The notes below the pieces were generated by a model. That model had not been told where the DNA came from. It ran no database searches and saw only the letters and a list, made by a program, of their open reading frames with translations. From Gammaproteobacteria bacterium (GTDB lineage Bacteria > Pseudomonadota > Gammaproteobacteria > Thiotrichales > Thiotrichaceae), in NCBI GenBank assembly GCA_018822845.1, contig JAHJJD010000075.1, positions 1-64,000 on the forward strand: 64,000 nucleotides of DNA, in the 5' to 3' direction. Positions 8,919 to 11,762 of this stretch are shown piece by piece (the stretch's first letter is position 1; each line of letters begins with the position of its first letter). Both the position numbers and the translations under genes were made by a program.

Positions 8919-11762
8919 ATGGCGGAAGGGCGACAATTCTTCGGGCATCCCGCGCTCGCCGGGCAGATTGCCCATCGCTTGCAAAGGCATTTCACCCAAG
9001 GCAGTAAGGCTGGCGCGTCTCTGGTCGTCGGCGTGTTCGGGGAATGGGGCAGTGGCAAAAGCAACCTGCTGCAACTGGTGCACGACGTGTTCAACCAGCA
9101 GCAGAAAGATGAAAACCCACTGCCTGTCATCGTCGTGCCCTTCAACCCGTGGCGCTACGAGAAAGAGGAACATCTGCTTGTCCCGCTGATCAAGAATATC
9201 CAGTTGGAGATTGAGCATCATGTTCGTGACAACGAAGGTTTCTGGGCAAAACTGAACCTGCTGGACAAGCTCAAGACCGGGGCGCGTTTCATGGGGGTGT
9301 CTGCGCTGGCGTTCTTGCAGGCGTTCAAGGGCAAGTACACGCTGCTGAAAGATGTGGCGGAAATCGAGTTTGAGCCGGAAAAATTCATCCAGGGCATCAA
9401 GGAGGGCATGAAACCGGAAGATGTGAAGCTTTCTGCCCTCGACAGCCTCGAAAGTTATTACTTTGAATTTGAGCACCGTTTACGCCAGTACACGGCAGGC
9501 GATGACGGTTTTCGCCTGCTGTTCCTGATTGATGATCTTGACCGTTGTTTACCGGAAAAAGCGGTGGAAATGCTTGAATCCATCAAGCTGTTCCTCGATG
9601 TGGAAGGCTGTGCCTTTGTGCTGGCGCTGGATGACGAAGTGGTGGAGCGAGGTATTATTCACCGTTACCGTGACTACATTTTTCAGGGCAACGGGCAGCG
9701 CATGGATGACAAAAGCCTTGCGCAATTGCCCATCACCGGCCCGGAATATCTGGAAAAGATCATCCATTTGCCATTCCGTTTACCGCAGCCGTCACGGGTG
9801 GAAATCCGCCAGTTTTTGCGTCAGGAATACGCCGAGTTGTTCAATTCGCAACAGGCTACCGACCTGCTCAACCTGTTCGTCAACCACATCCCGCCCGTGC
9901 CACGCAAACAAATCCGCACTGCTGAACTGGTGTTGCTGTTGCAAGGTATGGCGAAAGCGCGGAATTGTGACGGGCGCATCAAACCGTTGCCGCTGGTCAA
10001 GCTGACTCTGCTGCAACTCTACGCGCCGGAACTGTACCGATTCGGGCGGCGGCGTTTCCGGGGTTTCATGCAGACATTGCAGGAATGGGCAGGGGAACAG
10101 GAGTGGGCGCAAAAAGGTTTCGGCAAGAATCTGGAAAACCGTATCAAAACGCCCGTTGCTGGAGCCAATAGCCTGAACGAACAGCAACAGGTGGAAGCCC
10201 GCAACTATGACCGTTTCTATGCCCCGTTGATTGAGGCGCTGGAAATGGCGGCGCATAACCGTAGCGGTTTTGACCCGTTTCAGTTCATCAAGGCCAATCC
10301 CTTGTCTGCCGAAGACGTGCAGGATTTGCGCATCTATTTCAGCTTTGTGGATGAAGCTGCCCTGTCCGAGGAGGAGCGCAAGACCGAAACCTCCACCATC
10401 ATGGATGCGGAAGCAGAAAACCTGCTGGTGGCAGAATTGCCGAACGTGGATGAATTCCTGGATTTGCTGTTCAGTGCATCGGAAGGCAGTTGGCAATCGG
10501 CAGTGCAAATGCCGGAACTGGTCGGGCGGGTATTGGACGAAGCAAGCTTCAAGGCCGTGTTGGCACGCTTGCAAAAGCCTGATTTCAAGTCCTTGCTCAG
10601 CAACCCGAAGTGGTTGAAAGTGCTGATGCCGCATCTGGATACGGCGCAATCCGCGCAGTTGCTGCAATTGATGGGCAACTTTGCCCAACTGTTGCCCACC
10701 CCATTACCGGATGATCCAGCAGTAGAGCAATGTGAACCGCTATTTGCCAGTGCGCAGTTGCTGGCAGTGATGCGTCCATCCCAGCAACAGCTTGTGCAGG
10801 ATACAACCGATGCGACCCGCACATGGCTGACGCAGATTGTGACAAAACACCGTCTGGCAGTGCCGCAACGGGCGGAGGCAGGGCGCATCCTCAGTGACCT
10901 CGGCGACCTGCGCAAAGGCGTGGGCGTGCGCAAGGCAGCGGACTTTTCCCATGCCATCCCGGATATTGACTGGCAGGAAATCTCGCCCGGCACATTCCAC
11001 ATGGGGTTTGAAGCGGATGAAAAGTTACATGAGTGGGATGAACGTTCCAAACCTGTCCATGATGTCACGTTACCCGGTTTCCACATCAGCCGTTATCCCG
11101 TGACCAACGCCCAGTATGCCTGCTTCATTGAGGCGGGGATGTACAAGAATCGGAGATTCTGGGAGCAAAATCTGCCGAAAGCGGCGGTGCAGTGGTTGGA
11201 AAAGGAGAACCGCTTGCAACCGGATCATTGGGAGGATAGGCGGTGGAATCTGGCAAACCATCCCGTAGTCGGAGTGACATGGTTTGAAGCTTTGGCTTAC
11301 TGCGTGTGGCTGAACGGTTTGCTGGCTGAACTCAAGCCGGGGGATGTGGTAAAGGGTGCGAAAGTCCGACTGCCCACGGAAGCCGAATGGGAATATGCCG
11401 CCCGTGACAAACAGGGTCTGCGCTACGCTTGGGGTGACGAGGCGGACGCCGGTTTGGGTAATTATGGCGATACAGGATTGGGGCAAACATCAGCCGTTGG
11501 TTTGTTTCCGTCGAGCAAGGTGTTTGGTTTGCATGACATGAGTGGGAATGTGTGGGAATGGATGAGTAGCCGCAACCTTAAGTACAGCGATTGGGGTAAT
11601 TTTAGAACAATATGGGATTTGCTGGATGCGGATGGTGAAAAAGTTGTTCGTGGCGGTTCTTGGCACGTTCCTGCCCGCTTCGTTCGGTGCGCTTTCCGTA
11701 GCTGGGATCTTCCCTACGACCGGTACGACTTTCTGGGGTTTCGCGTGGTGTTGAGTGTATGA
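8919..11762 (+). CDS. KAP-family P-loop NTPase fused to a formylglycine-generating-enzyme-like (C-type lectin fold) domain
   Basis: A 947-residue multidomain protein. Residues 1-330 form a KAP-type NTPase with Walker A GEWGSGKS (41-48), the [10 protein letters not shown] segment, and Walker B [11 protein letters not shown] near 203-213. A helical middle follows (about 330-680). From about 682 to the end is an FGE-sulfatase/SUMF1-type domain: [38 protein letters not shown] and RGGSW...GFRVV. Free-living FGE enzymes activate sulfatases; fused to an NTPase, the fold more often serves as a ligand-binding module. KAP NTPases include PifA, the F-plasmid phage-exclusion protein, so a defence or signalling role is plausible. 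The C-terminus has the hallmarks of a retroelement-diversified region. AAAGGA lies before ATG. Confidence 0.9.
   Translation: [947 protein letters not shown]
11643..11759 (+). other. Candidate diversity-generating-retroelement variable region (VR)
   Basis: The last 39 codons of the KAP-FGE gene encode VVRGGSW, a mixed segment, and GFRVV, the place where known DGRs rewrite FGE/C-type lectin domains. Twelve positions that are typically Asn (AAC/AAT) in DGR template repeats of this family are instead H916, V917, P918, F921, S928, D930, L931, Y933, D934, Y936, D937 and F938. All twelve codons end in C or T, as expected if only the two adenines of AAY codons were replaced. The flanking framework residues are conserved. 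The template repeat and reverse transcriptase are not in the window, so the VR would have to be served from elsewhere or be a fossil. Confidence 0.65.

Follow-up and report, generated by a model that had tools for sequence, protein, structure and literature searches.

A diversity-generating retroelement variable repeat in a KAP–FGE gene of a Thiotrichaceae genome, with its template on another contig

We analyzed a window of 64,000 nucleotides from a gammaproteobacterium of the family Thiotrichaceae (GenBank assembly GCA_018822845.1, contig JAHJJD010000075.1), which is contig C59 of the genome labeled G000; its other contigs are likewise given C-numbers. The window carries on its forward strand a gene (8919–11762) whose 947-aa product joins a KAP P-loop NTPase to a C-terminal FGE/C-type-lectin domain. 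The end of this gene, at 11649–11769 on the same strand, is almost certainly the variable repeat (VR) of a diversity-generating retroelement (DGR), because a template repeat (TR) exists in the same genome and the differences between the two fall on adenines. In DGRs, TR RNA is copied by an adenine-error-prone reverse transcriptase (RT), and the cDNA, primed at a 3′ GC-rich block, replaces the VR. The data support a target remote from its retroelement, as a preliminary description of the stretch had anticipated: The template is on contig C22 and the open RT genes are on C39 and C3.

A DNA search of the whole genome with 11500–11762 as query returned two strong partners, both on C22. One is the TR (C22:4195–4315), a 121-nt AAC/AAT-rich repeat that is not at a gene end; the other (C22:7564–7684) is a VR ending a 939-aa NACHT–FGE gene 3 kb downstream from the TR. 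Over the 121 nt, the NACHT–FGE VR departs from the TR at 15 of 29 adenines and at none of the 92 other positions (15/29 vs. 0/85 in the adenine test, p = 3.7e-11). The window VR matches the TR at 84/92 non-A positions with 19/29 template adenines changed; tested as a whole block over 114 nt, 19/29 adenines and 7/85 other positions differ (p = 3.0e-9). A rewritten core of 80 nt (11677–11756, forward strand) is identical to the TR at 58/58 non-A positions and changed at 15/22 adenines (p = 2.6e-11), with the caveat that its borders were set after the mismatches were seen, the whole-block test being the unbiased one. We scanned 942,774 positions on both strands, in the examined regions of this genome and its relatives, and only three 80-nt places matched the TR core at 58/58 non-A positions, namely, the TR itself, the NACHT–FGE VR, and the window VR, which excludes chance. 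The VR stands at the 3′ end of a gene with an FGE/C-type-lectin fold and ends in a block common to TR and VR. Through the TR adenines, 18 codons can vary, giving ∼3.5e15 possible proteins with stop codons impossible.

All eight non-A differences between the window VR and the TR (11651, 11657, 11660, 11672, 11673, 11676, 11757, and 11767) lie toward the ends, six of them in the 5′ end of the VR (11649–11676, forward strand). At the 3′ border (11757–11828, forward strand), the first mismatch after the core is at 11757, and the tail, with the pattern GGTGCTGG...CTGATT...CTTCTGAA, resembles the VR 3′ flanks of other targets of the same DGR class (class D) and is unlike the TR flank. The 5′ end may be older sequence that the last rewriting left unreplaced, and a clean core with differing borders would be expected if that rewriting had replaced only the core tract.

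The preliminary description had located a retroelement-diversified segment, RGGSW...GFRVV, at the end of the KAP-NTPase/FGE fusion; it is where claimed, and the TR in the same genome, with differences concentrated on its adenines, bears out its diversification by a retroelement. The segment was given as 11643–11759, which overlaps the homologous block but does not coincide with it. All 12 residues listed as variable (H916, V917, P918, F921, S928, D930, L931, Y933, D934, Y936, D937, and F938) have codons ending in C or T, as stated, and 10 of the 12 are AAY codons in the TR, so the proposal that all descend from asparagine codons fails at P918 (ACC in the TR) and L931 (CAT). The list also missed adenine-derived changes at F926 (ATC), W929 (AGG), R935 (CGA, silent), and one base of R920. 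Both template and RT had been placed outside the window, correctly: an AAC-rich pattern, allowing up to one mismatch, had no match there, and none of the genome's three places with the RT profile RVT_1 is on C59. A whole-genome search had been expected to uncover an A-rich copy next to a DGR-type RT or, were the idea wrong, no near-identical template at all; the copy exists, at the C22 location above, but no RT adjoins it.

Sequence comparison supports rewriting that was local and not inherited with the gene, since the VR fits its own TR while the preceding FGE domain is widely diverged. Before the VR, the FGE domains of the window and C22 genes share 62% aa identity. At identical residues (M and W left out), third codon positions of the two genes agree at 47% in the FGE domain ahead of the VR (n = 121) and at 86% within the VR (n = 21). 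The core of the window VR matches its own TR at 58/58 non-A positions and the class D templates of four related genomes at 53/56 (G014), 52/56 (G002), 48/58 (G004), and 45/58 (G007).

Profile searches placed KAP_NTPase at residues 30–313 and FGE-sulfatase at residues 687–944 of the window protein. The KAP_NTPase domain scored 126.9 bits against a curated cut-off of 20, making the protein a member of this family, and its KAP part matched the PADLOC profiles QatA (1.4e-29) and PifA (3.5e-29). Modeled with 37 relatives aligned, the FGE domain adopted an FGE fold (pLDDT 88.3, pTM 0.89) with EgtB and FGE-type proteins as best PDB matches. By sequence, it matched the Treponema denticola variable protein structure 2y3c (E 1.7e-8), which was absent among the 50 structural PDB matches listed for the model. 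The FGE/C-type-lectin fold suggests that the varied face of the domain may bind a ligand, and domain homology suggests that the protein might serve as the sensor-NTPase of an anti-phage type conflict system. Outside its own window, the KAP–FGE fusion was seen in none of 57 relatives (own genome included); four of the 57 had a match at E ≤ 1e-60, none of which, away from the window, extended upstream beyond residue 559. A wider contig scan (80 loci kept) recovered distant FGE genes only, with no match over the KAP part, and the 37 FGE genes aligned from it are 31%–44% identical to the window domain.

Of the three RVT_1 places in the genome, those on C39 and C3 are open frames of 350 aa and the one on C16 is broken. 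The open RTs are both of class A, are 89% identical to each other, and carry the YMDD motif. Each has a VR upstream, and a TR is found after the C39 gene and on C20, so the genome does hold RTs of DGR type. The first 106 nt of C20 repeat the end of C3 exactly, but since C76 also ends in 100 of these nucleotides, C3 and C20 could not be joined uniquely. In front of the RT there is an HRDC-domain gene on C39 and a similar frame on C3. Tracing templates from 31 FGE-domain matches and the examined regions, we recognized at least five TRs (more may exist), whose best non-A matches to FGE gene ends were 86/86 (A39), 87/87 (A20), 96/96 (B16), 95/95 (C121), and 92/92 (D22, the template of the window VR); three of the five have no intact RT at their locus. 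Ten gene ends fit a TR well: five of class A (on C39, C3, C29, C9, and C76), two of class B (both on C16), C121b, and two of class D (C22 and the window). An eleventh, C121a, is a poorer VR that matches class A at 80/87. No RT was found near the C29 and C9 targets, and C76 holds an RT tail only. These targets couple FGE to TIR (C39), caspase (C3), nSTAND1 (C9), protein kinase (C76 and C29), CHAT (C121a), TIR-nSTAND1 (C121b), NACHT (C22), and KAP (window) domains; the two C16 targets have no Pfam domain besides FGE.

Two of these loci deserve description in their own right. At C16:7200–8500, a class B TR is accompanied by two VRs (96/96 and 95/96 non-A matches), an RT without its middle part, and an Avd-like frame. 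At C121:43205–43683, a TR matches a TIR-nSTAND1-FGE target at 95/95 non-A positions, no RT being found at the locus; beyond the repeat, ∼48 nt of its 3′ flank can be aligned, though weakly (67%), with the class D flank.

We searched for the class D template in 16 genomes of the genus (own included), and five matched at E ≤ 1e-6. Their TR–VR pairs agree at 92/92 (G000), 93/93 (G004), 89/90 (G014), 89/90 (G002), and 90/92 (G007) non-A positions, and the VR is best fitted by its own TR in four of the five. Complete class D units, comprising a TR, a NACHT–FGE target, and, following the target, a 364-aa RT and a 110-aa Avd-type protein, occur in G004 and G007 (RT 97% and Avd-type protein 95% identical between the two; bAvd by Pfam in G007). 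In G000, G002, and G014, neither an RT nor an Avd-type gene was found at the class D locus. G002 has a DGR-like RT on C31 that lacks its middle part, its other RVT_1 matches being at 28%–30% identity, and G014 is the sole genome of the 16 without any RVT_1 match at E ≤ 0.001.

The C22 and G014 loci, both RT-less, are collinear over 7.8 kb at 79.7% identity, and their templates differ at 13/121 positions. The G000 VR agrees with its own TR at 92/92 non-A positions and with that of G014 at 82/90; the G014 VR agrees with its own at 89/90 and with that of G000 at 81/92. Of 26 shared template-adenine positions, the two VRs differ at 14, have the same non-A base at seven, and have A in both at five. 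The better fit of each VR to its own TR and the differing adenine sites indicate that rewriting went on after G000 and G014 split. The simplest reading is that RT reaches the RT-less class D loci from another place in the cell. Alternatively, G000 and G014 may have lost their RTs independently, which would fit the different sequences that follow the target in the two genomes. As a separate observation, the G014 VR lacks the usual stop codon, which adds 14 residues.

The surroundings of the class D template resemble a small gene. A 40-nt element of similar sequence, with lower resemblance in G002 and G007, precedes all five templates. The ∼170 nt downstream are nearly identical in the five species and end in a hairpin predicted by the alignment fold; in four of the species a T-run comes next. 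A structured 3′ domain is plausible from this model; with five sequences so alike, covariation is weak (both partners changed in 2/55 pairs). A promoter scan around the C22 TR gave four sites (shuffle mean 0.8), one of them at the upstream element on the opposite strand and none there on the TR strand; that the element is a promoter is a guess, and the same scan did not list the hairpin and T-run as a terminator. We tentatively suggest, as a doubtful but possible arrangement, that class D TR–target units are non-autonomous, their template being a small RNA gene of its own (upstream element, 121-nt repeat, ∼170-nt conserved 3′ domain with predicted structure, and terminator-like hairpin). Such RT-less units would have persisted across species divergence while an RT from another locus, perhaps of another class, rewrote them in trans, one template serving sensors of different NTPase families at different loci.

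For the window VR, we propose that RNA from the C22 TR would have been copied by an adenine-error-prone RT and that the cDNA, priming at the 3′ GC-rich block, would have replaced the VR. The C22 template would have served the window locus in trans after that locus lost its own, and a varied FGE/lectin face might let the KAP–FGE protein recognize changing ligands. The enzyme may have been a cognate RT that has since been lost or lies outside the assembled contigs, or either of the two open RTs, which are non-cognate and would have acted in trans. The use of a class A RT on a class D template is unproven, as is present activity of the window VR. Several observations count against this account. 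C22 has no RT beside the template, whether sought by RVT_1 or by class A and D RT proteins (the only pieces to match were at chance level, E 0.18 and 0.37), and no class D RT was found in the genome as a whole. No complete, autonomous cassette emerged, with neither an own-class RT nor, in the examined regions to which the Avd search was limited, an Avd on C22 or in the window. The open class A RTs are only 31%–33% identical to the class D RT, and in blastn the class A and D TRs do not align beyond the repeat. The window VR has six non-A differences in its 5′ 28 nt and two after the core, against 0/92 in the C22 VR, and the G007 VR fits the G004 TR (92/93) slightly better than its own. Third-position agreement of the window VR with G002 (84%, n = 19), G014 (68%), G004 (56%), and G007 (41%) does not single out its own genome, which is singled out by the core fit of 58/58, better than to any sister TR. 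Finally, the putative sensor role is proposed from domain homology.

Explanations that dispense with rewriting from the template fared poorly. Both target genes share the FGE domain, with the identity given above ahead of the VR, so ordinary gene conversion from the NACHT–FGE VR, or its duplication, might be considered; we judge it very improbable, as within the core every difference is at a template adenine. Moreover, the window VR keeps the template A at four positions that are changed in the C22 VR, and at five positions the two are changed to different bases (the same non-A base is found at six). These retained adenines and differently changed positions identify the TR, and not the C22 VR, as the source, and the retained adenines refute the C22 VR as sole source. 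Ordinary divergence of the FGE domain with selection on its loops could explain why the same stretch varies among 38 aligned FGE domains, most of them without demonstrated status as DGR targets. It is refuted by an A-rich template in the genome that is identical at 58/58 non-A core bases, and we give a history without a retroelement almost no credence.

The enzyme is a harder matter. That the window VR is a fossil, rewritten earlier from the C22 TR by a class D RT since lost and no longer diversified, we regard as close to an even chance. Such a loss agrees with a genome in which we found no class D RT, with a C22 locus without RT or Avd, with the eight non-A differences of the window VR, and with a class B RT that is also broken; in G014, too, a clean class D pair (89/90 non-A) stands in an assembly that gave no RVT_1 match anywhere. 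The absence of non-A differences in the core (0/58) and in the C22 pair (0/92) implies, however, rewriting that is recent relative to ordinary divergence, and the G000 and G014 VRs were rewritten after the split despite collinear RT-less loci. It is possible, though we doubt it, that an open class A RT (C39 or C3) copies the class D TR and rewrites both class D targets now. Two open YMDD-bearing RT genes and the three RT-less templates of this genome are in keeping with this, as are, in the available text of Dore et al. (2024; PMC10907252), RT-less loci in Thiohalocapsa inferred to be diversified in trans; in that case, however, the RT acting in trans has a matching TR (DGR 2 for DGR 4 and 5), whereas here the class A and D enzymes are as distant as noted and their TR flanks do not align. 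The clean G014 pair without an RVT_1 match likewise means that a class A RT would be no general answer. A cognate class D RT on a plasmid, or on a stretch absent from the assemblies, is rather unlikely. In its favor, 20 plasmid records encode RTs that match the class D RT at E ≤ 1e-40, with identities of up to 48.3%, and in one of them an annotated avd is adjacent; also, the assembly is in 130 contigs, with a class A RT gene reaching a contig end. But completeness is 99.33%, the same absence recurs in G002 and G014, and scans of viral contigs for the class D TR flank and RT, made with exact and hence narrow patterns, found neither.

Returning to rewriting from the C22 template in trans, the window locus retains what may be a trace of a template of its own. 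Directly upstream of the target gene, between the stop of the preceding gene and the KAP–FGE start, lies a relict of the element that precedes class D TRs (8857–8888, forward strand), with no template present. It is 90% identical to C22:4138–4176 over 39 nt (E 2.5e-8), and the element's pattern, drawn from an alignment that includes 8857–8888, matched once in the window and never in 100 shuffles. The promoter scan found no site at this element. Most likely, the locus once had its own template after the element and has since lost it. The KAP–FGE unit itself is most likely an inserted block, as its site is empty in G005 and G013 (the preceding gene and the gene at 12464 are 75 and 8 nt apart), nearly empty in G011 (∼190 nt from the preceding gene to the phosphatase-like one at 11909), and filled before the 12464-gene site by other, restriction-modification-like genes in G006. 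In G002, the TR–NACHT–FGE unit adjoins the same phosphatase-like, LysR-like, and MFS-like genes, without the 12464 gene; these names, like restriction-modification-like, were assigned by reading and not by profile.

Two side observations concern the window. The site before the 12464 gene (8848–11900) is a possible defence hotspot. A 41-nt stretch at 40220–40260, palindromic by reading, has 93% identical copies after the C22 template and on C16, C124, and C70, and looks like a small dispersed repeat.

The locus is a clean and testable example of a DGR target separated from its template as well as its enzyme, and it comes from a genome in which FGE sensors bearing TIR, caspase, kinase, NACHT, STAND, and KAP domains draw on several templates. 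Were it active, the acceptance of a foreign-class template by a DGR RT could be examined directly, as could the presence of evolving sensors on KAP-type defence ATPases; as a fossil, it would show how FGE sensors freeze once the RT is lost. We found no literature on a DGR or retroelement in Thiothrix, a guess at the genus.

Among known systems, the class D DGRs of G004 and G007 are closest in sequence, with the same template (84% and 83% blastn identity), a near-identical 3′ flank, and FGE targets of the same type; they have an RT and an Avd-type gene beside a NACHT target, whereas the window, whose target is a KAP protein, lacks all three. The DGR of Bordetella phage BPP-1 reportedly has all its parts in one locus and a phage tail protein as target; like it, the window shows adenine-specific TR–VR changes at a C-terminal lectin fold, and unlike it, the window target lies apart from template and enzyme. 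The window KAP P-loop domain resembles the anti-phage KAP ATPases QatA and PifA, whose profile matches span residues 8–307 only and exclude the FGE domain. In the portions of Dore et al. (2024; PMC10907252) available to us, DGRs with NTPase–FGE targets are described in multicellular bacteria, with several classes per genome and RT-less loci; trans diversification is inferred there where a VR agrees with a distant TR at every non-A site, FGE/CLec sensors are reported on STAND NTPases, and KAP NTPase is named among clade 5D targets. Those portions contain no example of a template class that persists in three related species in the absence of its own RT, and our case further differs in that target, template, and open RTs are on separate contigs and no own-class RT was found in the genome. 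What the window shares with these systems is a C-terminal FGE/CLec domain on an NTPase, several DGR classes, RT-less loci, and a distant TR; as far as that source extends, a remote DGR target is of a kind already described.

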